Below, piece by piece: positions 1,449-11,867 of a stretch of 13,162 bases of DNA. Position numbers and translations under genes: made by a program. The DNA lies in the NCBI GenBank assembly GCA_028293265.1, contig JAQGPB010000376.1, forward strand, positions 1-13,162. The letters run 5' to 3'. The first letter of the stretch is position 1. Each line of letters starts with the position of its first letter. This DNA comes from Pedosphaera sp. GTDB taxonomy: Bacteria; Verrucomicrobiota; Verrucomicrobiae; Limisphaerales; Pedosphaeraceae. The notes below the pieces were generated by a model, which saw only the letters and a program-made list of their open reading frames with translations, searched no databases and was not told the DNA's origin.

Positions 1449-1559
1449 TTCGCCGCCGCTTGAAGCCGCCTGGAGCAGACGGGCCGTGCCAAGGCTGAAA
1501 CATAAAGAAAAATTCATGCTTTCTTCATCGTCATTTCATTTTCCCTTGGTCTATTGATA
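1449..1559. promoter_or_regulatory. Spacer holding the presumed operon promoter
   Basis: This is the only gap longer than 15 bp between 495 and 11867. Its second half (about 1497-1560) is markedly AT-rich compared with the surrounding genes, as expected for a promoter region. No -35/-10 pair with good hexamers and spacing can be read with confidence. No intrinsic terminator (hairpin plus T-run) is visible for the upstream hydrolase. Confidence 0.35.
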
Positions 1560-2123
1560 ATGATGAGAAGTATTAAAGTAATTTTATTGATGGCGGGTTT
1601 CGCAGCCATGGCCATTACCACTCGCGCGGCACCGCTCGCAATTGACCCGCGGCAAAGCACGGTTGAAGTGGCTGTCAGTTGCAGCATGGATTCGTTCGTC
1701 GGCCATCTGGAAAAATACCAGGCCGCCATTGAATGCGATCCCACGGCGGCCTTGCCGACCAAGGCGGACTTGAGTTTTGATTTTGCCGATCTGAAGACCG
1801 GAAAGAAAGATCGCGACAGCGCAATGCTAAAATGGCTTGAATACAGTGCCCATCCCGCAGCGTCATTTCATCTCACCGGCTGGAACCAGGTGGGAACCAC
1901 CAACATTGGCCTGGGCACGCTGACAATGCATGGCGTCGTGTTGCCGGTGCAAATGCCTGTAGTCATCAACCACGATGACACGGTCTGGTACATTTCCGGT
2001 CAAACGCTCATTGACTACCGTGATTTCAAGCTCCCCAAAATTCGCAAGGCTTTGGTTCTGACCGTTAATCCAAAACTAACGGTAAAGTTTCACCTGGTGG
2101 GCAAAATCGTCGCCTCGAAATAA
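1560..2123 (+). CDS. Exported YceI-family protein (polyisoprenoid-binding lipocalin-like fold)
   Basis: This protein of about 187 residues has an N-terminal signal peptide: MMRSIK, then the hydrophobic run VILLMAGFAAMAI and an ARAA-like cleavage site near TTRAA. It is followed by a YceI domain over most of the mature length. Family features include the opening LAIDPRQSTVEVAVS, the middle KDRDSAMLKWLEYSAHP (in YceI proteins usually 'R(D)xhl..ffd...yP'), then FHLTGW, LTMHGV and the closing beta-strands. YceI proteins form a beta-barrel that binds long isoprenoid chains such as ubiquinone or polyprenyl tails in the periplasm. The frame extends upstream to a TTG at 1554, but ATG at 1560 or 1563 is the likelier start. 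It is followed after 15 bp by a polyprenyl diphosphate synthase, which fits an isoprenoid role. The binding partner is inferred from the family only. Confidence 0.82.
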   Translation: MMRSIKVILLMAGFAAMAITTRAAPLAIDPRQSTVEVAVSCSMDSFVGHLEKYQAAIECDPTAALPTKADLSFDFADLKTGKKDRDSAMLKWLEYSAHPAASFHLTGWNQVGTTNIGLGTLTMHGVVLPVQMPVVINHDDTVWYISGQTLIDYRDFKLPKIRKALVLTVNPKLTVKFHLVGKIVASK

Positions 2124-2138
2124 TTCCCTGCCATTTTC

Positions 2139-3071
2139 ATGCTTTACGTCAAACCCGTGTCGGCCGACATCGAGGCGGAATTGCAGACGGCTTTCACGAC
2201 CGGCTTGCCATGGGCTGCGGAAACCGAGCCTCATTTGGGTGGAGCACTGCGGCAGACTCTGGACCACCCCGGCAGCCTGGTGCGCGCCCGGCTCGTTTAT
2301 GAAATGGCCCATGCCTACGGCCTGGCGAACAGCCGCGCGAAGAACCTTGCCGTGGCCATTGAATATTTTCATACGGCATCGCTTCTGTTTGACGATTTGC
2401 CGTGCATGGATGACGCCGCAGAGCGGCGTGGTCAGCCTTGTGTACATCACACCCACGGCGAAGCCGCCGCCATTCTCGCGGCGCTGGGATTGGTCAGCCG
2501 CGCTTACGCTTTGCTGTGGCAGGCACTGACGGAGTCGTCAGCGGACCGCCAGACGCTTGCCGGCTCTTACGTGGAAAAATGTCTCGGTGTCAATGGGCTG
2601 TTGAGCGGGCAGAGCGAAGACCTGCATTACGTCAGCCTGCCGGAATATCGCCGTTCGCCGCAGAAAGTCGCCACCGGTAAAACCGTTTCGCTTATCCGCC
2701 TCTCGCTCGTTCTGCCCGCGCTGCTCGCCGGCGTGGAACCGGGAGAAGTGCGTTTATTGGAACGCCTCGCGGTCTTCTGGGGATTGGGCTACCAGATCCT
2801 CGACGACTTCAAGGATGTTTACCAGCAAGCGGCGGCCTGTACCGGCAAGACTTCAGCCCGGGATCAGTCTCTCAATCGTCCGAATCTGGTGCTGGCCGTC
2901 GGAGCAGACCAGTCCCTTCAGCGACTTGAAAGGCTCATGGGTTTGGGCGACCAGATTTTGAACCGGCTGATGGCGCGGCTGCCGTCCTTGGGTTACCTGA
3001 ACGAGCTTCGTGGCCGCTTTCGGCAGGAAATCAGCAGGATCAAAGCGATCAATTTTTCCCCAGCCTTATGA
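2139..3071 (+). CDS. Short-chain polyprenyl diphosphate synthase (FPP/GGPP synthase type)
   Basis: This 310-residue trans-isoprenyl diphosphate synthase joins isopentenyl diphosphate units to an allylic diphosphate in the cytoplasm. The first aspartate-rich motif is DDLPCMDD (D85, D86, D91, D92) followed by ERRGQP. The second is LDDFKD (D222, D223, D226) in GLGYQILDD. Also visible are VEKCLGVNGLLSGQSED (140s-161, the family 'GQxxD') and GKT (180-182). The FARM is the type II kind with two extra residues (DDxxxxD). The residue five places before it is Ala80, where farnesyl synthases usually carry an aromatic. This favours a product of C20 or longer, an inference from known chain-length rules. 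The segment after SARM is unusual, with GKTSARDQSLNRPNL in place of the common 'GKD...GK.T' lysine loop. It overlaps the next gene by 4 bp (ATGA). Confidence 0.85.
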   Translation: MLYVKPVSADIEAELQTAFTTGLPWAAETEPHLGGALRQTLDHPGSLVRARLVYEMAHAYGLANSRAKNLAVAIEYFHTASLLFDDLPCMDDAAERRGQPCVHHTHGEAAAILAALGLVSRAYALLWQALTESSADRQTLAGSYVEKCLGVNGLLSGQSEDLHYVSLPEYRRSPQKVATGKTVSLIRLSLVLPALLAGVEPGEVRLLERLAVFWGLGYQILDDFKDVYQQAAACTGKTSARDQSLNRPNLVLAVGADQSLQRLERLMGLGDQILNRLMARLPSLGYLNELRGRFRQEISRIKAINFSPAL

Positions 3072-4180
3072 TTTTCCTGAGGTTAATTCTGACCAACCTG
3101 CAACGGCATCGGGTGCGCACGCTGATTGGCATCACGGGCATTGCGTTTAGTGTCGCCGCGATGTTGACGGTGGTCACCATTCTTCAAGGCGCCATTGGAA
3201 TGTTCGAACACATTCTATCCAACGACAGCGAATTCATCGTCTTTGAAAGGAACGTGTCGGACCTTTTTTTTAGCAGCGTGCCGGATGAGGCGGTCAGGCA
3301 GTTAAGCCAGTGGAACATGGTGGAACACGCCCATCCCGTGCTCTTTGGCATCGTGTCGAGCGCGGACCACCCCATCATTACCTGCTTTGGGGTGATGGCG
3401 GACGACGCGCGCATCCACAATACGACCTGGCTGGCCGGCAATCGTGACGACTTCGCAAACAATAAGCGCGGCGTGGTGCTGGGAGAACGCGCCGCGGAAT
3501 TTCTCAAGGCCAAAGTCGGCGCCGAAATTCCCATCGGCCGTGAAACCTTTCCCGTGATTGGCATCCTGAAAACGGCGAACGGCTTTGAGGACGGCGGTGT
3601 CTTTATGCCGCTGGTGGCCACCCAGCAATTCTTTCACAAGGAAGGTCTGTCGTCTGTGGCCACTGTCAAACTCAAAAGCGGCGAAGACAAGGCTGCATTC
3701 AGACAAGCGGTCTCTGACAAATACCCCGCGCTGATCGCGCTGGAAAACGAGGAGTTCAGCCGGTCGTATTCGCAATTCAAAATCCTCAGGGCGACGGCGT
3801 GGGCCGTGGGGTGCTGTGGACTGATTCTGGGGGGGCTTGGAATCGCGAACACGATGATCATGTCTGTGTTCACGCGCATTCGGGAGATTGCCATCCTGCG
3901 GGTCAACGGATTCTCCAACGTGCAGATCACCGGACTGATCCTGGGTGAATCCGCCTTGGTGTCAGCCGTGGGGGCAGTCGCCGGGCTGGTTGTCGGGGGG
4001 ATGCTCGTAGTTGCGCTCAAGTTCGTGCCGATGCTCCACGGTTATGTGGACGCTCATATGCAGGCAAGTGTGGTGCTCGCCGTGGGCGCACTGGCCTGCT
4101 TGACGGGCATTGTCGGCGCGCTTTACCCGGCCTTTTATGCCTTGCGAATCCGGCCGGTGGAGGCTTTGCGTTTCGAGTAG
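3068..4180 (+). CDS. ABC transporter permease, MacB/FtsX type
   Basis: This is a 370-residue inner-membrane permease with the MacB/LolC/DevC layout. One transmembrane helix (about 17-40) is followed by a periplasmic domain (about 45-235), then three helices (about 240-265, 290-318 and 333-356). The short amphipathic opening LRLILTNLQRHRVRTLIG precedes TM1. The FtsX-type coupling segment REIAILRVNGFSNVQITGL (272-290) and the closing YALRIRPVEALRFE are characteristic. These permeases are usually mechanotransmission or lipoprotein/export machines rather than true channels. The partner ATPase follows after 12 bp. No membrane-fusion protein (MacA/HlyD) or outer-membrane factor is nearby, so the pair either stands alone or uses a remote partner. 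It starts inside the stop of the prenyl synthase gene (ATGA overlap). A run of eight T bases near 3264 is in frame. The substrate is unknown. Confidence 0.88.
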   Translation: MIFLRLILTNLQRHRVRTLIGITGIAFSVAAMLTVVTILQGAIGMFEHILSNDSEFIVFERNVSDLFFSSVPDEAVRQLSQWNMVEHAHPVLFGIVSSADHPIITCFGVMADDARIHNTTWLAGNRDDFANNKRGVVLGERAAEFLKAKVGAEIPIGRETFPVIGILKTANGFEDGGVFMPLVATQQFFHKEGLSSVATVKLKSGEDKAAFRQAVSDKYPALIALENEEFSRSYSQFKILRATAWAVGCCGLILGGLGIANTMIMSVFTRIREIAILRVNGFSNVQITGLILGESALVSAVGAVAGLVVGGMLVVALKFVPMLHGYVDAHMQASVVLAVGALACLTGIVGALYPAFYALRIRPVEALRFE

Positions 4181-4192
4181 CATTCCCAGACC

Positions 4193-4882
4193 ATGTCTCC
4201 TTTATCTCCAGTCAAAACAGTCATCCTGCGCGCCGAAAGCGTTTGGAAGAGTTACGACCATGACGCCATCCGAGTGCTCAACGGCGTGGATTTTCATGCG
4301 GTGGCCGGCGAAACCGTGGCCCTGTGTGGTCCGTCCGGCTGTGGCAAAAGCACCTTGCTCCATTTGCTGGGCGGATTGGATGTGCCCGATCGTGGTGAAA
4401 TTACCATTTGCGGAACATCATCCCGTCAAAGCGGGGACTTGCTGCGGTTGCTGAGACATGAGGTGAGCCTTGTCTTCCAGCTTCACAATCTCATTCCCGA
4501 TCTTACTCTGGAGGAAAATTGCCTGGTCCCTGCGGTGGCTGCCGGAGTCAGTCGTCGCGAAGCGCAGGCCAGGCTCGCGCAACTGGCCGCGCGCACCGGA
4601 CTGACGGACCGGCTAAACCAACGTATCCAAAAGCTTTCGGGCGGCGAACGTCAGCGCACCGCGCTTTGCCGGGCGCTCATGAATCGTCCGCGCGTTCTGC
4701 TGGCCGACGAGCCGACCGGCTCGCTGGATGAACGCACCCGCAATCAGGTTTTTCAATTGCTCATCGAACTCGTCGCCGATGAAGGCGTCACGCTTGTCAT
4801 GGCAACCCATGACCGCCAACTCGCCGAACGGTGTGACCGCATGGTGGTGATGAAGGATGGAAAGATGCATGAACTTTCATAA
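4193..4882 (+). CDS. ABC transporter ATP-binding protein, LolD/MacB type
   Basis: This is a 229-residue ATPase that energises the preceding FtsX-type permease from the cytoplasmic side. All nucleotide-binding elements are intact: Walker A GPSGCGKST (46-54), Q-loop VFQLHNL (Q96), signature LSGGERQR (148-155), Walker B VLLADEP (168-174) with GSLD following, and H-loop ATHD (H206). Length and motifs match the LolD/FtsE/MacB ATPase family, which works with MacB-type permeases. There is no recognisable ribosome binding site in the 12-bp gap, so translation may be coupled to the permease. Its 3' end overlaps the start of the CcoN-like gene, tying the transporter into the same message as the oxidase-like genes. 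A role in assembly of, or export linked to, that complex is possible but not shown. Confidence 0.9.
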   Translation: MSPLSPVKTVILRAESVWKSYDHDAIRVLNGVDFHAVAGETVALCGPSGCGKSTLLHLLGGLDVPDRGEITICGTSSRQSGDLLRLLRHEVSLVFQLHNLIPDLTLEENCLVPAVAAGVSRREAQARLAQLAARTGLTDRLNQRIQKLSGGERQRTALCRALMNRPRVLLADEPTGSLDERTRNQVFQLLIELVADEGVTLVMATHDRQLAERCDRMVVMKDGKMHELS

Positions 4883-6266
4883 TGCGGAACAGCGGGAAGC
4901 CGGTTCGGACGCACGGGAGGCAGTTCTTGGCGAAGGCCAAACGAATGTGCTGGCGTTTGCCGCCTGGCACAGTCTCGCCTGGTTGGTCATCAGCAATGGC
5001 ATCGGGTTGCTGCTCGGGTTGCTATTGCTCTTTCCGCAATTGAACCATTGGCTGGGGGAATGGACTTACGGCCGCTGGATGCCGCTGCATCTGAATCTTA
5101 ATCTTTACGGCTGGTGCAGCCTGCCACTGGTGGTCTGGCTTTTGCGATTTTACCAGGCTGACTGCAATCCGGCGGCGCGATGGAGTCGGACCGCGCTCTG
5201 GGCCTGGTCCACGGCATTGGCCATTGGCGCGATTTCGTGGCTCACGGGTCACAGCAGCGGCAAACTGTTTCTGGACTGGCAGGGTTATGCGCGGATGCTG
5301 TTCGCGTTGGCGATGCTGGTTTTATGGCTCGTGCTGGCGTGGTCGCTGTGCAGTCATTGGCGTGCCGGAGAGAATCTTTCACGGATTCTCCGCGCAGCCA
5401 AAATAGCCGGCCTCGTTCTGCTCCTGTGCGTCCCGTTCGCACTTTATTGGGCAGCCTCGCCAAAAGTTTATCCGCCAGTTAATCCAGACACCGGCGGGCC
5501 AACCGGCAACAGCTTGTTGGAATCAACCCTCGGCATCATTTTGATCCTTCTGGTGCTGCCCTACGGCACCCGTCGGCCAGCGAGGGCAAAGCGGAGGGCA
5601 ATCGCCTGGGCCTGGATTTTGTTCGCCGCGGAAAACCTCCTTTGTTTGGCGCTTGGGCGGGGCAACTCCAGTCACCACCAACGCAGCCAAATTCTGGGAT
5701 TGGGCAGCCTGTTGATTTGGATGCCACTCTTGCCGGCCTACTTTAACTCCTTCGATTGGCCGGCTGAAACGAAGCGCTGGCGCAATGCCTGTCTCTTTTG
5801 GTGGGGTTTGCTGGTGGTGAGCGCGTGGCTGGTTTTTTTGCCAGGTTTGCTGGACCGCTTCAAGTTCACGGATGCGCTGGTCGGCCATTCGCACATGGCC
5901 ATGGCGGGGTTTATCTCCAGCCTGAACATTTTTTTACTGGTGACCCTGCTGGAGGAAGATGGACGCAGGTTCAACTCGACCTGGGCGTTTTTCGCGTGGC
6001 AGGCGGGCACACTTGGCTACATCGTCATCATGTTCCTGGCGGGGTGGTTGGAGGGAAATAATCCCGGTTTCACCATTATTCCCGGCGTTAGCCGAGACAT
6101 AATCTACGTTTTGCGACTGGGTTGTGGCGGACTGATGACGGCGGCGGCCATATATTGGTGGCAGGGGCTTTCTTTGATGGATGGTCGGAAGCCGGAACTT
6201 CAAAGGAAAACTATATTGGAGGGCCGGCTTTCCTATGTTGCCCCTTCGCGGGCAAAAATCACATGA
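4869..6266 (+). CDS. Diverged CcoN-like haem-copper oxidase subunit I
   Basis: This membrane protein of about 465 residues has around twelve hydrophobic helices, like CcoN of cbb3 oxidases (positions below count from an in-frame ATG at 4857). GRWMPLHLN carries H78, matching the low-spin haem b ligand in CcoN 'GRLRPLHTN'. GHSHMAMAG carries H344 and H346, matching the high-spin haem and second low-spin ligands in 'GHVHAGALG'. SSHHQRSQ gives H273-H274, matching the Cu-B His pair. The helix around NPDTGGPTGNSLLESTLG (209-226) should hold the third Cu-B histidine and has none; E222 sits near that place. The catalytic tyrosine six residues before the His pair is replaced (G267). It is therefore either an atypical oxidase, an NO-reductase-like enzyme, or a non-catalytic relative. 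I prefer ATG 4869 (GGA 7 bp upstream) to 4857. It overlaps the ATPase gene before it and, by ATGA, the gene after it. Confidence 0.75.
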   Translation: MNFHNAEQREAGSDAREAVLGEGQTNVLAFAAWHSLAWLVISNGIGLLLGLLLLFPQLNHWLGEWTYGRWMPLHLNLNLYGWCSLPLVVWLLRFYQADCNPAARWSRTALWAWSTALAIGAISWLTGHSSGKLFLDWQGYARMLFALAMLVLWLVLAWSLCSHWRAGENLSRILRAAKIAGLVLLLCVPFALYWAASPKVYPPVNPDTGGPTGNSLLESTLGIILILLVLPYGTRRPARAKRRAIAWAWILFAAENLLCLALGRGNSSHHQRSQILGLGSLLIWMPLLPAYFNSFDWPAETKRWRNACLFWWGLLVVSAWLVFLPGLLDRFKFTDALVGHSHMAMAGFISSLNIFLLVTLLEEDGRRFNSTWAFFAWQAGTLGYIVIMFLAGWLEGNNPGFTIIPGVSRDIIYVLRLGCGGLMTAAAIYWWQGLSLMDGRKPELQRKTILEGRLSYVAPSRAKIT

Positions 6267-6682
6267 GCCAAATCCGCCCATCCCGCTGGTTGCTGGTTTA
6301 TCAGTGCCTTGCCGGTTTGTGTGATGTCACGACCGGAGTGCTCTTGGTGTTCGCTCCTGGTTGGACGCTCACCCTGATGGGGGTGCGGCACATTCCGCAA
6401 CCGGTTGATTTCGCCTCGTTCATCGGCGCATTCGTGCTGTCCGTGGGCGTCGCCTACCTATATGCCGCGTGTCTGCCCATGAATGCCGCCAACGCACCGC
6501 GCTGGCAAACGGTCTGGTGGCTGACCGCTCTAAGCCGGACATCCGTCGCCGGTTTTCTGGCGTGGAAGATTCTTACGGGCCATTTGGAATCAGCCTGGCT
6601 GACAGTAGCGCTCACGGATGGCCTCGTGGCCGTGTTCCAATGGATCGGCCTGCGCGCGGGGTGGTTGTGTTTCAAAGACTGA
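6263..6682 (+). CDS. Four-helix integral membrane protein, probable complex subunit
   Basis: This 139-residue hydrophobic protein has about four membrane helices (roughly 8-32, 47-70, 83-103 and 115-133) and no haem-binding or metal motif. I do not recognise a named family. The start at ATG 6263 is fixed by the ATGA overlap with the CcoN-like stop; an upstream in-frame ATG at 6122 would bury 140 bp in that gene and is unlikely. It is followed after 3 bp by the cytochrome fusion gene. Lying between a subunit I homologue and its cytochrome partner, in a tightly overlapped run, it is plausibly a small structural or assembly subunit playing the part that CcoQ or CcoH plays in cbb3 oxidase. That role is inferred from position alone. 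Confidence 0.72.
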   Translation: MSQIRPSRWLLVYQCLAGLCDVTTGVLLVFAPGWTLTLMGVRHIPQPVDFASFIGAFVLSVGVAYLYAACLPMNAANAPRWQTVWWLTALSRTSVAGFLAWKILTGHLESAWLTVALTDGLVAVFQWIGLRAGWLCFKD

Positions 6683-6685
6683 ATC

Positions 6686-8752
6686 ATGCCTGCCCAAAGT
6701 GAAAATGGGAGATGGATCGAGGGTTGGCGCGGGGTTGGCCTCGTGGCGATCACCTACATCTATTTTCTCATCTTCGCTCAATTTGGTTTTCTCAAGCGCC
6801 TGGCCGATTTGGGCATCACCGGCCTTCAACTCAAATTCATCATGGGAGCGATGGCCACCGGCGGCATTGCCACCAGCCTGCTGGCTTTGCGATGGGAAGC
6901 CTGCTGGTTGCCCGGGCGGCGATTACAAGCCGGATTATTCGGTTGTGCCTTCGGCGCCATCCTGACTTTGTTGCCCGTGAGTCTGGTGGGGGGCATGGCC
7001 GTATCGTTTTTGATTGGCGCCGCGTTGGGCCTGCTGACCGTCACGCTGGTCACGCACCTGAAGTTATGGATTGGCACTGTTTGCCCCCTCCTCAAAATCG
7101 GGTTGGGGGTGGGGCTGGCGTATTTCGTTTGCAACTGTCCACAACTGTTTGAAGCTTCAGCGAGAGCGATGGCGGTGGTTTCGGCAGGACTGTGTTGCGT
7201 GGGCATTGGGCTGGCCGCTCGAAAGCTAAAAACACCATCGGAGGCCGGCTTCCAACCCGCCGGTTGGAACATTCCGCCGTTCTGGCTGGTCTTGGGCTGT
7301 TTCACCGCTCTGGTGTGGTTGGATTCGGCGGCATTTTTCGTCATTCAACATACGCCCGGGCTAAAATCGGAAACCTGGGAAGGCGCACGGCGGCTCTGGC
7401 AAAATGGCGGGGTGCATTTCCTTGCCGCGCTGGGCAGCGGCGTAATGCTGAATCGTCGCGGACTTTCAGCCACGTTGCTCCTGGCTTTCGTCAGTTTGGC
7501 CTGCGCTTGTTTGTTGTTGATTGAACCGGGGCGGGCCATGCTGGCAGGGCTTTGCTATCCGTTGGGCGTGTCACTCTATTCCGTCGCTCTGGTTGCCTAT
7601 CCAGCTTATCTCGCACCCACCGCTTCAGCGTTGGGAAGATCGCGTTCGGCCGGCCGCCTTTATGCTGTCGCCGGCTGGCTCGGTTCGGCGCTGGGTATCG
7701 GCATGGCGGAAAATCTCCGGCGGATTCCGCCAACCTTTGTCGGGCTGGCGGCGTTGCTGTTTTTTGCGCCTCACCTTTGGGATTATTTCCGTGAACGCAA
7801 ACGAGAGCTGTTGGCGACGGCCGCTTTGCTGCTGGCTGCTTGGGGAATGCAAAATCTTTTAGGCTCATCAGATGCGCCAGCATCGGCACCACAGCGGATA
7901 TCGCAGGCAAATCTGGGCCGTCAGGTATATATTTCGGAAGGCTGCATCCATTGTCACTCGCAATATGTGCGTCCGCATTCCAGCGATGAAATCATGTGGG
8001 GGCCGGTTGCGGATGTGGTCACGCGGCGTACGGAAGAGCCGCCACTAATCGGCAACCGGCGGCAGGGACCGGACTTGACAGAGGTCGGCAACCGGCGATC
8101 GAGCCTGTGGTTGAAGGCCCATTTTATGAATCCGGCGATGTTGAGTCCCCATTCTCCGATGCCGGTTTATGCACATCTTTTTGCCGATGAACGCGGCGAG
8201 GCCTTGCTCGCTTACGTGCAAAGCCTCGGTGAAACTGACGTTCCGGCGCATTTAGAAATCTCCCAAAAGCTTTGGCGGCTATCGGACGCAAGCATTGCGG
8301 CGGCGCGAGGACTCGATGGCGTGGCGTTGCTGCAGAAATATTGCGCAACCTGTCATGCCGCTGACGGTTTAACACGCCAAACCTGGAAGAGCAGCTTCAG
8401 GCGCTTGCCGCCGGATTTTGCCACCGGGCCATTCGTTTATGCGCCGCCGGGGTCGCCGTCAAACTGGCGATTGAAGCGCATCGCCGAAATCATCAAGTTC
8501 GGGTTGCCAGGGACCGACATGCCCGGACATGAATATCTGGCGGATGAAGAAGTCGCGGCGATGGCGATGCGAATCGTCAAACTCGCGGAGTCCAAAGCGC
8601 CTGATAGTGTGATGAACCATCGCGGCGCCGGTGGCATCCCGCATGGCACCCTGTCCACTTCCGTCAAATCGTTTGACACGAAAGGGTTGGGGGCGGAATG
8701 TGAAACCACTGTCTGCAAAGCTAAGCATGAAAATTTTGTTGGTGGAAGATGA
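6686..8752 (+). CDS. MFS-like membrane domain fused to CcoO-type and CcoP-type cytochrome c domains
   Basis: This is a 688-residue fusion. Residues 15-392 hold about 12-13 hydrophobic helices with a major-facilitator character (TM2 region GAMATGGIATSLLALRW; GLAYFVCNCPQLFEA near 143-157). Next comes a CcoO-type cytochrome c domain (about 405-515): EGCIHCHSQYVRP gives haem ligands C420, C423 and H424, then DEIMWGPV, RRQGPDL and SPMPVY with the likely axial M492. A second, CcoP-type domain (about 540-635) has YCATCHAADG (C553, C556, H557) and GTDMPGHEYL with the likely axial M612. Both cytochrome domains would lie in the periplasm. In classical cbb3 oxidases these domains are on two proteins, each held by one or two helices. 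Here one transporter-like domain carries both, next to a CcoN-like partner. A poorly conserved tail (636-688) extends 26 bp into the regulator gene. The MFS assignment is by eye and less certain than the cytochrome calls. Confidence 0.8.
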   Translation: MPAQSENGRWIEGWRGVGLVAITYIYFLIFAQFGFLKRLADLGITGLQLKFIMGAMATGGIATSLLALRWEACWLPGRRLQAGLFGCAFGAILTLLPVSLVGGMAVSFLIGAALGLLTVTLVTHLKLWIGTVCPLLKIGLGVGLAYFVCNCPQLFEASARAMAVVSAGLCCVGIGLAARKLKTPSEAGFQPAGWNIPPFWLVLGCFTALVWLDSAAFFVIQHTPGLKSETWEGARRLWQNGGVHFLAALGSGVMLNRRGLSATLLLAFVSLACACLLLIEPGRAMLAGLCYPLGVSLYSVALVAYPAYLAPTASALGRSRSAGRLYAVAGWLGSALGIGMAENLRRIPPTFVGLAALLFFAPHLWDYFRERKRELLATAALLLAAWGMQNLLGSSDAPASAPQRISQANLGRQVYISEGCIHCHSQYVRPHSSDEIMWGPVADVVTRRTEEPPLIGNRRQGPDLTEVGNRRSSLWLKAHFMNPAMLSPHSPMPVYAHLFADERGEALLAYVQSLGETDVPAHLEISQKLWRLSDASIAAARGLDGVALLQKYCATCHAADGLTRQTWKSSFRRLPPDFATGPFVYAPPGSPSNWRLKRIAEIIKFGLPGTDMPGHEYLADEEVAAMAMRIVKLAESKAPDSVMNHRGAGGIPHGTLSTSVKSFDTKGLGAECETTVCKAKHENFVGGR

Positions 8753-9395
8753 TCGGAAGATTGGCCAGTTCGCCAAGAAGGGACTGGAGGAAGTTTCGTA
8801 TTCCGCCGTTTGGGTTCGTAGTTGCATAGAAGCGCGGGCAGCTGCGACGAAAAACCAGTTTGACGTCATTGTCCTCGACATCGGCCTGCCCGACGGCAAC
8901 GGCCTTCAGCTGCTGACGGAATGGCGCCAAAAAGGTATCGCCGCCCATGTGCTTGTCTTGAGCGCACGGCACGCGGTGGAAGACAAGATCACAGCGCTGA
9001 ATCTCGGGGCGGATGACTATTTGACCAAACCTTTCAGTTTTGGAGAATTGCTGGCGCGCATCCGTTCCCTGGTCCGTCGCCATGCGGGGCAGAAAAATAC
9101 GGTTCTGAAGCACCGCCATATCCGGCTGGACCTGTTGGCCCGCGAAGTCACGGTTGACCGGGCGCCCGTCCAGCTCACGCAGCGCGAATTCGCACTGCTG
9201 GAATTTTTCCTGCAAAATCCCGCGCGTGTACTGACCCGCACCCAGATTGCCGAAAAGATCTGGGACTGCCACTTCGACATGGAGACCAATCTTGTGGATG
9301 TCTATGTCGGCAAACTGCGCGCCAAACTCCGCAGCCCCGGCGAATCCGAACCGTTGTTCCACAGCGTGCGCGGCGTCGGCTACAAACTCGGATGA
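8727..9395 (+). CDS. OmpR/PhoB-family response regulator, CusR/CopR-like
   Basis: This 222-residue two-component regulator has a receiver domain (1-115) followed by a winged-helix DNA-binding domain (about 125-222). The receiver is complete: acidic pair E7, D8, D9; phosphoacceptor D51 in VIVLDIGLPDGNG; S79 in VLSAR; K101 in LTKPFSFGELLARI. The output domain ends in the typical VDVYVGKLRAKL and SVRGVGYKLG. General resemblance is to the heavy-metal/copper branch (CusR, CopR), but the ligand cannot be inferred from the regulator. ATG 8727 (MKILLVEDD) is the natural start; the frame is open further upstream only because it overlaps the fusion gene. It overlaps that gene by 26 bp and the kinase gene by 4 bp (ATGA), so it is co-transcribed with the oxidase-like genes and probably controls its own operon. 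Confidence 0.92.
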   Translation: MKILLVEDDRKIGQFAKKGLEEVSYSAVWVRSCIEARAAATKNQFDVIVLDIGLPDGNGLQLLTEWRQKGIAAHVLVLSARHAVEDKITALNLGADDYLTKPFSFGELLARIRSLVRRHAGQKNTVLKHRHIRLDLLAREVTVDRAPVQLTQREFALLEFFLQNPARVLTRTQIAEKIWDCHFDMETNLVDVYVGKLRAKLRSPGESEPLFHSVRGVGYKLG

Positions 9396-10771
9396 TTCCG
9401 CTGCGCATCGCCCATGTCGTGTTCTATGCGGCCGTGGTTACGCTGACGGTCACGCTGGCGGTGGGATTTGGGTTTTGGTTCATCCGCCGGCAGATGCTCA
9501 CCGGCAACGATTTTTTGCTCGACGCCGAGAGCAAGGAAATCCTCGCCCGCATTGAACAAATCACGCCGCCGATTGATGCCCGCAATCTGGAGGCAGCCTT
9601 GCGGGAGCACACCGAGAATGACCGGGCATTGTTTTACTTTCAAGTGCATGAACCCAAAGGCCGGGTGCTCTACCATTCGCCCAACCTGGGCGGGGAGGCC
9701 TTGACGAGCCTGACGGGCCGCCTCGGCAAACGCACGGTGAATCTTCAGCCCTTCGGCCTTTTGCGCGTAGCGGAGTACCACACCCCGACGGTGCAGGTGC
9801 AGATCGCCATGTCGTTGCGGAATTTTCAAAGCATCAACGACAGTTTTGTGCGCGTTTTTTTGGTGGGCGTTCCGCTCATCGCGGTGTTGAGCATCGGATT
9901 TGGCATGGCCTTGCGCCATTCCACCCTGCGCCCCGTCCGGCTGATGCAGTCCACCGCCCGGCGCATCAGCGCCAACAACCTCGGCGAACGCATTGTCGTG
10001 CCAACGGGTGGAGGCGAGATGGCCGCCCTGGCCAGGTTGTTGAACGACATGATTGAGCGGCTCGAAAAATCTTTCAACCACGTGAAGCGGTTCACCGCTG
10101 ATGTTTCCCATGAACTGATGACGCCTCTGTCCATCATCCGCCTCCACACCGAACGGCTGCTGAACGATCCGGAATTGCCCGCGAAATACCAACATTCGGT
10201 TGAAGAGCAATTGCAGGAGACGCTTCATCTCGCCGAAACGGTCGAACAACTGCTGATGCTGGCCAAGGCGGACTCCAACGTCTTGCCGCTCAGATTGCAA
10301 CCTGTATCAACCTGCGACTTCATGGGGCAATTTGCCGAGGACGCCCTGCTTTTGGCGGAGAGCCGCGGACTGAAGGTGGTTGTGGCACAAAATGACTGTG
10401 GCTTTGCCAGCTTTGACCAGGGCTGGATACGCCAGGTAATGTTCAACCTGCTTTCCAATGCTCTTCGTTTCAGTCCGCCAAACGGAACCATCACCTTCCA
10501 TTCAAAATGCGCCGATGGAACCTGGGCCGTGGAAGTATGGGATGAAGGCAACGGCGTGCCGCCAATACGGATTAATGAAATCTTTGAGCGGTTCATCCAG
10601 ATCACTCCGCTTTCGGAACCCGGGTCCGGTGCCGGCCTTGGGCTGGCCATCTGCAAGAGCATCGTGCAACTGCATAAGGGCCGGATCTCCGCGCAAAATC
10701 GCACGGATCGCACCGGCTTGGCAGTTGCCTTTTCTCTGCCATTGAACAATGCCGGCGTTCAAGCGGACTAA
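9392..10771 (+). CDS. Membrane sensor histidine kinase, CusS-like
   Basis: This 459-residue inner-membrane kinase partners the preceding regulator. TM1 is about 8-30 and TM2 about 153-175, enclosing a periplasmic sensor domain of about 120 residues. A HAMP segment (about 176-228) follows, then the phosphoacceptor H240 in FTADVSHELMTPLSIIRL. The catalytic ATP-binding domain shows the N box FNLLSNALRFS (N352, N356), G1 box VWDEGNGVP, F box FERFIQ and G2 box GSGAGLGLAICK. All boxes expected for an active kinase are present. The periplasmic domain has no obvious cysteine or methionine cluster, so a copper ligand is not evident. The start overlaps the regulator stop as ATGA. The gene ends with TAA at 10769-10771, which overlaps the ribosome binding site of the small ORF that follows. 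Confidence 0.92.
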   Translation: MIPLRIAHVVFYAAVVTLTVTLAVGFGFWFIRRQMLTGNDFLLDAESKEILARIEQITPPIDARNLEAALREHTENDRALFYFQVHEPKGRVLYHSPNLGGEALTSLTGRLGKRTVNLQPFGLLRVAEYHTPTVQVQIAMSLRNFQSINDSFVRVFLVGVPLIAVLSIGFGMALRHSTLRPVRLMQSTARRISANNLGERIVVPTGGGEMAALARLLNDMIERLEKSFNHVKRFTADVSHELMTPLSIIRLHTERLLNDPELPAKYQHSVEEQLQETLHLAETVEQLLMLAKADSNVLPLRLQPVSTCDFMGQFAEDALLLAESRGLKVVVAQNDCGFASFDQGWIRQVMFNLLSNALRFSPPNGTITFHSKCADGTWAVEVWDEGNGVPPIRINEIFERFIQITPLSEPGSGAGLGLAICKSIVQLHKGRISAQNRTDRTGLAVAFSLPLNNAGVQAD

Positions 10772-10779
10772 GGATTGAG

Positions 10780-10908
10780 ATGGTATCTGGATGTAAAATT
10801 GATCGGAAAGACCCGCGCTTGGGAATGCTCGCCATCATCACCCCCGCTCCGGATCACCTCGGCAACCCGAAAAATCTCGCGCCACACTGGCGGGAGGAAA
10901 GTTGCTGA
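10780..10908 (+). CDS. Probable 42-residue small protein gene, coupled to the prenyltransferase gene
   Basis: This short frame runs from ATG 10780 to TGA 10906-10908. It is preceded by AAGGA at 10770-10774, one of the better-placed ribosome binding sites in the window (5-bp spacing). Its TGA overlaps the ATG of the next gene (TGATG), a common arrangement for translational coupling. The product is soluble-looking: DPRLGMLAIITPAPDHLG in the middle and NPKNLAPHWREESC at the end, with two cysteines (5, 42) and two histidines (26, 36). I do not recognise a family. It fills exactly the space between kinase and prenyltransferase, so it could be a genuine small protein, a leader peptide controlling the next gene, or the degraded end of a lost gene. 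Confidence 0.45.
   Translation: MVSGCKIDRKDPRLGMLAIITPAPDHLGNPKNLAPHWREESC
10892..10897 (+). promoter_or_regulatory. Shine-Dalgarno site of the prenyltransferase gene
   Basis: GGGAGG lies 10 bp before ATG 10908, inside the end of the small ORF. It is 4 bp before a TTG at 10902 that extends the frame by two codons. The ATG is preferred because it also forms the TGATG overlap. Confidence 0.55.
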
Positions 10909-11867
10909 TGACAAATGACGCAGCCTTCCTGCCTCCAACCTCGCCTTTTGGCGTTATCGGCAAATGGGCGAGCTTCGTAAAGCTGTCTCACACCGTCTTT
11001 GCCCTGCCTTTCGCGCTGGCTTCGATGGTCGTGGCGGCGCGGGACCAACGTGGCTGGCCCGGTTGGCAGAAGTTTGGGCTCATCCTGGCCGCCATGATTT
11101 GCGGCCGCACTTGCGCCATGGCCTTCAACCGCATCGTGGACCGCGAGTTCGACCAGGCCAATCCTCGCACTGCGGGCCGCCATCTGCCCACCGGCCAAAT
11201 CTCCTTGGCCAGTGCCAGCGTGCTTTGCGCTTCCAGCGGGGCGGGATTAATCGCCGCCTGTTATTTTCTGAATCCAATCTGTTTTTATTTCTCGTTCGTG
11301 GCTCTGGTGGTGGTCTGTTTTTATTCCCTGACCAAACGTTTTACTGACTTTACCCATGTCTTTCTTGGGGTGGCGCTGGCGCTGGCTCCCATCGGCGCCT
11401 GGCTGGCGGTGAAAGGCGGCTTTTCGTTCTCACGGATGCAGGACAGCGCCCTGTTGCCGATCCTGCTGGCGATGGCGGTCGTCCTCTGGCTCATCGGTTT
11501 TGACATCATCTATGCCCTTCAGGATTATGATTTTGACCGCACTCACGGCCTGCATTCGCTGGTCGTACGCTGGGGACCGAATCGGGCCCTGACCGCAGCC
11601 TTTTTTGCGCACATGCTGATGTGGGGATTGTTGGTTGCCTTCGGATTGCTTTGCCGGTTTCACGTGGCATTCTTGGTGGGATTGTTGGTGATCCTGTTCA
11701 GCCTGGTGCTGGAGCACCGACTGGCGCGCCGTCGCAGTCTGAAATGGATCAACACGGCCTTTTTCCGGCTGAATGCCCTGATCAGCGTCGTGTTTCTCAT
11801 CGTGACCGTGGCGGAAGTGGTGTTTCCCTTTCATTTCGGTCGGTTAAATTTCTGGGTCCATCGCTGA
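10908..11867 (+). CDS. mqnP: UbiA-family prenyltransferase, MqnP-like (aminofutalosine menaquinone pathway)
   Basis: This is a 319-residue integral membrane prenyltransferase with about eight to nine helices. The first Mg/diphosphate-binding motif is NRIVDREFD (74-82), followed by the tell-tale NPRTAGRHLPTG. The second is DIIYALQDYDFD (199-210), followed by THGLHSLVVRWG. This wording is that of the 'other UbiA' group of 4-hydroxybenzoate-type prenyltransferases, now assigned as MqnP in organisms that make menaquinone through futalosine. There it attaches the polyprenyl tail to the aromatic precursor. The symbol is assigned by motif and not by a search, and a UbiA role is the alternative. It uses a polyprenyl diphosphate as donor, and a synthase for such a donor is the second gene of the same run. 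Its start overlaps the small ORF. The gene ends 88 bp before the convergent hydrolase gene. Confidence 0.82.
   Translation: MTNDAAFLPPTSPFGVIGKWASFVKLSHTVFALPFALASMVVAARDQRGWPGWQKFGLILAAMICGRTCAMAFNRIVDREFDQANPRTAGRHLPTGQISLASASVLCASSGAGLIAACYFLNPICFYFSFVALVVVCFYSLTKRFTDFTHVFLGVALALAPIGAWLAVKGGFSFSRMQDSALLPILLAMAVVLWLIGFDIIYALQDYDFDRTHGLHSLVVRWGPNRALTAAFFAHMLMWGLLVAFGLLCRFHVAFLVGLLVILFSLVLEHRLARRRSLKWINTAFFRLNALISVVFLIVTVAEVVFPFHFGRLNFWVHR

Follow-up and report, generated by a model that had tools for sequence, protein, structure and literature searches.

The tyrosine in helix 7 of cbb3 oxidases is cross-linked to a histidine, and the FeB site of cytochrome c-dependent nitric oxide reductases (cNOR) is built from three histidines and a glutamate. 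In carriers of the major facilitator superfamily (MFS), helices 1, 4, 7 and 10 line the cavity and helices 3, 6, 9 and 12 face the lipid. The MFS protein CcoA carries its copper motifs, MxxxM and HxxxM, in transmembrane helices 7 and 8 (TM7 and TM8), respectively, according to PMC6362234. Here we analyse a 13,162-nucleotide stretch of DNA from Pedosphaera sp. (contig JAQGPB010000376.1; the window) in which an MFS domain, a CcoO-type haem c domain and a CcoP-like haem c domain form a single protein, encoded beside a CcoN-like subunit that lacks the three-His CuB site. The parts are of known kinds; the apparent novelty lies in their combination, with an MFS domain placed ahead of CcoO, a CcoN that lacks the three-His CuB, and an operon that adds lipid-type ABC, prenyl and YceI genes. 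A literature search over titles and abstract openings of open-licence papers returned none on such an MFS-cytochrome fusion and none doubting its CuB site. On balance we lean towards a model in which the fusion would be a subunit of a cbb3-derived membrane redox complex that does not reduce O2, holds a live MFS transporter on a tether and works with a lipid-like partner.

An earlier note on the window had proposed that a transporter-like domain and two cytochrome c domains share one polypeptide, and relatives bear this out. A scan of genome contigs with the fusion-family alignment gave 131 relatives, of which 80 were kept as loci, including three at contig ends (L038, L048 and L058) with neither a CcoN-like gene nor a full-length fusion; the scan with a single sequence instead of the alignment found no relative. 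One open frame covers the MFS, CcoO and CcoP parts in 77 of the 80 loci, and the remaining three lie at contig ends. The MFS character ascribed to the N-terminal helices is matched by a 12-helix MFS fold, followed by a 13th helix where the anchor helix of CcoO would be expected. The two haem domains are likewise of the types proposed, by their Pfam matches and by conserved CXXCH motifs and methionines. In the CcoO domain the motif is CIHCH (residues 420–424; C420, C423 and H424 at 99% in 199 rows) and the candidate axial ligand M492 is kept in all 198 rows with a residue there; in the CcoP-like domain they are CATCH (553–557) and M612 (195/195 rows with a residue there). Exactly two CXXCH motifs occur in 194 of 200 fusion-family sequences. 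The FixO Pfam score of the fusion is above the cut-off; TIGR00781 scores 79.9 bits, under its 200.65, and NF011054 reaches 82.6 bits where its cut-off is 447, with the match limited to the CcoO part. Such fusions are widespread: a search with residues 1–400 as query matched 1422 proteins at E <= 0.001 among 7997 candidates scored. Among the 120 matches listed (window included), 118 have FixO and 116 have FixO plus cytochrome domains; two, P0044 and P0104, are MFS-only. A CcoO linked to a second cytochrome has a precedent (NF011054); what is unusual is the MFS domain ahead of CcoO, together with the degenerate CcoN. The window fusion exceeds its nearest relative (646 aa) by 42 residues (window 8610–8752), and its gene shares its last 26 bases with the response regulator gene, whose start is inferred.

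Conservation in the MFS domain is concentrated around the cavity. Across 200 rows, with helix limits derived from the model, 31/105 columns in helices 1, 4, 7 and 10 are conserved at >=97%, compared with 16/95 in helices 2, 5, 8 and 11 and 2/79 in helices 3, 6, 9 and 12 (Fisher p = 5e-7 for the first class vs the last). D213, Q221, H244, Y291 and Y298 are invariant (200/200). D213 lies in TM7 and H244 in TM8, the two helices that bear the copper motifs in CcoA. The motifs themselves, which the earlier note did not see in the window, are found at the TM7 (MxxxM) and TM8 (HxxxM) columns in 0/200 rows; anywhere within residues 1–400, M...M occurs in 106 and H...M in 8 of 200 sequences. NarK-type nitrate carriers are present in the fold-match list of the domain. 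Six standalone MFS proteins retain D213, Q221, H244, Y291, S296 and Y298, and one of the six, that of L139, deviates at Q32 and several other positions. A standalone protein used as query matches exactly once per genome in nine genomes, hitting either a fused protein or another standalone one. The conserved cavity residues and the standalone orthologues make a mere membrane scaffold, an option the note had left standing, less likely. The pattern looks like that of a carrier with a function of its own that may later have been tied to a cytochrome, and from conservation alone we infer a live 12-helix secondary transporter. The standalone proteins of L131 and L133 have an N-terminal extension with several histidines ahead of helix 1, a possible metal-binding stretch. 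In L131, L133, L135 and L137 the neighbours of the standalone gene, on the opposite strand, resemble hisG and further histidine-biosynthesis genes (named by eye), a setting that may reflect only local gene order in related genomes.

The CcoN-like subunit has the haem-copper oxidase (HCO) fold, with cNOR as near as cbb3. The claim that the three-His CuB site is missing rests on helix 6: none of 196 rows with residues there has a histidine at 207–231, and just outside this span one occurs at 232 in 3 rows, at 236 in 16 and at 206 in 2. The absence of a helix-6 histidine in these rows likewise speaks against an FeB site of the cNOR kind. In hhalign alignments of the window protein, the canonical helix-6 histidine falls in a gap, C259 takes the place of the canonical tyrosine and G265-N266 that of the CuB pair. 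Tyrosine stands at 259 in 10 of 194 rows with a residue there; histidines occupy both 265 and 266 in one row and 264–265 in eight. H269-H270 (H269 in 175/196 rows, H270 in 138/196) was considered as the CuB pair and rejected, as the parsed hhalign output places it four residues downstream of the canonical pair. By contrast with the lost CuB ligands, the window protein keeps the low-spin haem ligands H74 and H342 and the high-spin ligand H340. H74 is present in 192/192 rows with a residue there and H340 in 197/197; H342 is found in 51/120 database rows and 31/31 rows of a mainly Verrucomicrobial set, and in 0/46 loci of the Acidobacterial set. Position 218 is Glu in 109/120 database rows (Glu or Asp in 117) and in 46/46 Acidobacterial-set loci, and Gly in 25/31 rows of the mainly Verrucomicrobial set; H270 also varies. 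TIGR00780 (ccoN) returns no row at E 1 for the window protein, and its sole NCBIfam row is the CcoN/O model NF011053, at 21.4 bits vs a cut-off of 1080. Lacking the three-His CuB site, the protein is not a normal CcoN and its complex is probably no cbb3 oxidase; we infer that this complex does not reduce O2.

Seven CcoN-like rows (P0169, P0175, P0178, P0188, P0194, P0198 and P0226) combine Tyr at 259, a His pair at 264–265, both near the canonical places, and Asp at 218; this sub-group is a candidate for a less degenerate form. Another HCO-like protein is encoded in two Verrucomicrobiota, at L097:1417-2883 and in L101 (G006:C20 and G005:C193). The L097 gene comes after an ActF-like gene (alternative complex III, by eye), and its helix 10 reads THGELGYYMTG vs the GHxH of CcoN, so that the haem ligands seem lost. 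A strong PF00115 oxidase gene lies ~3 kb beyond the HCO-like gene in both genomes.

The 80 loci include 48 from Acidobacteriota (24 named Terriglobales, one Thermoanaerobaculia), 29 from Verrucomicrobiota and one titled Rhodanobacteraceae. In the order of Terriglobus roseus, 18 of 150 genomes have a full-length fusion and the same 18 have the CcoN-like gene, ~400–500 bases away each time; G106 has a CcoN-like fragment only. In the phylum of Luteolibacter pohnpeiensis, a strong CcoN-like match is present in 11 of 194 genomes, seven with a full fusion, one (G246) with an MFS-CcoO protein without the CcoP part, and three split. In the split genomes the distance between the separate MFS gene and the CcoN-like gene is ~340 kb (G336), ~314 kb (G324) and ~15 kb (G277), and the CcoN-like or the small gene is immediately followed by a gene for a CcoO-type cytochrome; no Lol-like permease was found in the 11 kb covered in G336 and G324, and no synthase in the 12 kb covered in G277. 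The CcoN-like gene shares the locus of the fusion at 77 of 80 loci and stands next to it in 18/18 genomes; the fusion is not universal, the MFS gene being separate in 3 of the 11 Verrucomicrobiota. An MFS gene occurs with no CcoN-like match in G230 and G310. G243 carries an additional, standalone MFS copy, and G057 an additional, partial fusion copy.

The window genes from 1554 to 10771 are all on the same strand, with gaps of <=15 bases or overlaps, in the order YceI, polyprenyl synthase, ABC permease, ABC ATPase, CcoN-like, small protein, fusion, response regulator and kinase (Table 1). Six-frame searches over the 80 loci found the CcoN-like gene in 77, the small protein in 77, the permease and the ATPase in 74 each, the synthase in 71 and YceI in 67. 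Walker A and LSGG are present in 74/74 ATPase relatives, and two Asp-rich motifs in 70/71 synthase relatives. The permease and ATPase of L012 are nearest LolC/E and LolD (NCBIfam), all under curated cut-offs. Neither the small protein of the window nor either of two relatives examined matches a Pfam family. All six module genes are on the + strand in 71 of the 80 loci, in strict order by frame start in 63; the other eight (L043, L044, L055, L060, L069, L076, L077 and L078) show joins or upstream frame starts. Nine loci have an incomplete module. Seven of these (L038, L048, L057, L058, L059, L062 and L074) are near contig ends; the other two have >9 kb of upstream sequence, where L066 shows no synthase and L073 (Thermoanaerobaculia, 9.5 kb upstream) neither synthase nor ABC genes, with CcoN-like gene, small gene and fusion present. 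Apparent CcoN-MFS-CcoO fusions in L055, L060, L069 and L076 were rejected, as one open frame overruns the small gene, which sits in another frame. A single open frame takes in the CcoN-like and small membrane proteins in L043 (619 aa) and L044 (609 aa); the two may be fused there, which would favour direct contact between them.

Kinases and regulators of the window and L012 are nearest the heavy-metal families cztRS/silRS/copRS, under curated cut-offs, and kinase matches occur in 45/80 loci, a rough count with some missed and some unspecific; the pair is outside the conserved core. A UbiA-family prenyltransferase (window 10902–11867) adjoins the operon and, with relatives in only 2/80 loci, is also outside the core. 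Upstream, at 495–1448, lies a metallo-beta-lactamase-fold hydrolase (Lactamase_B_2) with relatives in 24/80 loci.

Table 1. Positions of the fusion, its domains and the neighbouring genes in the window.
Feature	Position	Strand	Remarks
YceI-family protein	1554..2123	+	
Polyprenyl (farnesyl pyrophosphate, FPP-type) synthase	2139..3071	+	
ABC permease, MacB_PCD + FtsX (Pfam)	3068..4180	+	L012 copy nearest LolC/E
ABC ATPase	4193..4882	+	L012 copy nearest LolD
CcoN-like 12-helix subunit, 465 aa	4869..6266	+	
Small conserved hydrophobic protein, 139 aa	6263..6682	+	4-base overlap with CcoN-like stop
MFS-CcoO-CcoP fusion protein, 688 aa	6686..8752	+	
12-helix MFS domain, residues 5-365	6698..7780	+	
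13th helix, residues 372-392, at inferred CcoO anchor-helix position	7799..7861	+	Placement vs CcoO chains
CcoO (FixO) haem c domain, residues 410-502	7913..8191	+	Pfam FixO E 9e-25; CcoO chains 8smr_F, 3mk7_B
CcoP-like haem c domain, residues 544-627	8315..8566	+	Pfam Cytochrom_C / Cytochrome_CBB3
OmpR-type response regulator (start inferred)	8727..9395	+	Best NCBIfam cztR/silR/copR, under cut-off
Sensor histidine kinase	9392..10771	+	Best NCBIfam cztS/silS/copS, under cut-off

Public sources name relatives of the CcoN-like protein and the fusion 'cytochrome c oxidase cbb3-type subunit 1/2'. One such locus, L016, belongs to Terriglobus roseus DSM 18391, which we take to be strain KBS 63. Its genome has two PF00115 genes, a single CcoN-like gene, located at 5038722–5040020 of NC_018014.1, and 0 matches to TIGR00780; the CcoN-like protein reads E218, H269, H270, H340 and L342. 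PMC5900883 and PMC8407424 each count one 'cbb3 oxidase' for T. roseus, and PMC5900883 proposes a microaerobic lifestyle for acidobacteria that possess a cbb3 or bd oxidase gene. PMC8407424 reports that the T. roseus cbb3 was hardly expressed at any tested O2 level, leaves a loss of function unclear, and expresses surprise at the lack of expression of a 'high-affinity oxidase' at nanomolar O2. From the gene counts above, the 'cbb3 oxidase' of both papers should, by exclusion, be the CcoN-like protein without the three-His CuB. Such an identity would explain the surprise voiced in PMC8407424. Family genes that at present bear the label of an oxygen-respiration enzyme probably have another role, and T. 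roseus offers a cultured test case in which electron transfer and an MFS transporter may be linked covalently.

In the model we favour, the fusion would form a complex with the CcoN-like protein. Electrons, most likely from cytochrome c or a bc1-type donor, would enter at the CcoP-like haem, pass to the CcoO haem and end at the b-haem site of the CcoN-like subunit or on a periplasmic substrate. That subunit would use H340 for its high-spin haem and, in the window lineage, also H74 and H342, the three-His CuB having been lost. The tethered MFS domain would move a solute whose handling takes place at this redox complex or is gated by it, the presumed path leading from haem to substrate to MFS domain, and the Lol-like ABC transporter, the polyprenyl synthase and YceI may supply or shuttle a lipid-like partner. 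Electron flow from CcoP/CcoO to a CcoN-type subunit without the usual CuB might itself drive or gate the MFS domain on the same chain; we consider such a redox-gated secondary transporter doubtful, and we know of no described system in which a respiratory-chain fragment and a solute carrier are coupled energetically in this way. Several observations weigh against the favoured model. Covalent coupling is not essential everywhere, since the MFS and cytochrome genes are separate in three of the 11 Verrucomicrobiota. The His pair 269-270 stands only four residues past the canonical CuB pair, ten rows have a tyrosine at the canonical place and eight a His pair one residue off, and in this Tyr/His-pair minority a partial metal site of two histidines and a carboxylate could survive. 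Haem content varies across the family, as the loss of H342 in all Acidobacterial-set loci indicates.

The public names, the intact CcoO and CcoP motifs, the overall HCO fold and the minority rows that retain a tyrosine and, close to the canonical position, two adjacent histidines would all suit a divergent but genuine cbb3-type O2 reductase, with the MFS domain merely an enlarged membrane anchor of CcoO. We hold this to be highly improbable: the helix-6 histidine is absent, tyrosine and CuB pair are replaced in the window, H342 is lost in the Acidobacterial set, and cavity-centred MFS conservation is unexpected for an anchor. A gas reductase with an altered centre, in which the two loop histidines and E218/D218 might hold a metal by the H340 haem and the substrate might be nitric oxide, would account for the carboxylate at 218, the frequency of H269 and H270 and a fold as close to cNOR as to cbb3. 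It seems quite unlikely, however, with Gly at 218 in most of the mainly Verrucomicrobial rows and a variable H270; no other feature of nitric oxide reductases turned up, none having been specifically tested for. The conserved high-spin haem ligand of every CcoN-like row and the kinase and regulator adjoining the window operon, with kinase matches in roughly half of the loci, would also fit a complex that senses a gas or the redox state through its haems and signals to the two-component system. A sensor would hardly need two c-haem domains together with an ABC transporter and a transporter domain, and the kinase pair is outside the core; we hold this reading to be very unlikely.

Reduction of periplasmic Cu(II) or Fe(III) by the c-haems, with import of the reduced ion through the MFS domain, is an unlikely alternative to which three observations lend some weight: the resemblance of the window and L012 two-component genes to cztRS/silRS/copRS, the invariant D213 and H244 in the helices that hold the CcoA motifs, and the histidine-containing extensions of the L131 and L133 proteins. 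Yet the CcoA motifs themselves are missing from all 200 rows, the two-component matches fall under curated cut-offs, and the polyprenyl synthase, YceI and the Lol-like ABC transporter would be left without need. These last genes would find a use in periplasmic redox chemistry of an isoprenoid or quinone type, in which the synthase would build the chain, the Lol-like transporter lift it from the membrane, YceI carry it and the b and c haems oxidise or reduce it, the MFS domain moving a soluble product or protons; we regard this combination as possible, if on the unlikely side. YceI proteins bind isoprenoids, and a YceI/cytochrome b561 gene pair is known. The frequent linkage of synthase, permease and YceI and the Asp-rich motifs of nearly all synthases argue for it, whereas no direct tie of these proteins to a prenylated redox carrier emerged, and L073 lacks synthase and ABC genes and L066 the synthase.

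Compared with the cbb3 CcoNOP complexes (3mk7, 8smr, 9g6b), the CcoN-like subunit described here lacks the helix-6 histidine and, in the window, also the CuB pair and tyrosine positions; CcoO bears an MFS domain, and the operon also encodes an ABC transporter, a polyprenyl synthase and YceI. The cNOR structures (4xyd, 3o0r) differ from it in the same helix-6 histidine, and the cytochrome here is of the CcoO type rather than the NorC type. LolCDE and MacB-type transporters are approached by the L012 permease and ATPase, nearest LolC/E and LolD, and by the MacB_PCD and FtsX domains of the window permease, but scores stay under curated cut-offs and the genes here neighbour those of a redox complex and of a polyprenyl synthase. 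CcoA and CalT have the MFS fold and a link to cbb3-like genes in common with the fusion, which differs in lacking MxxxM in TM7 and HxxxM in TM8 in 200/200 rows and in being covalently joined to its cytochromes. Proteins of NF011054, judged by the family name 'bifunctional subunit II/cytochrome c', likewise have a C-terminal cytochrome c on CcoO; in the fusion, an MFS domain precedes CcoO.
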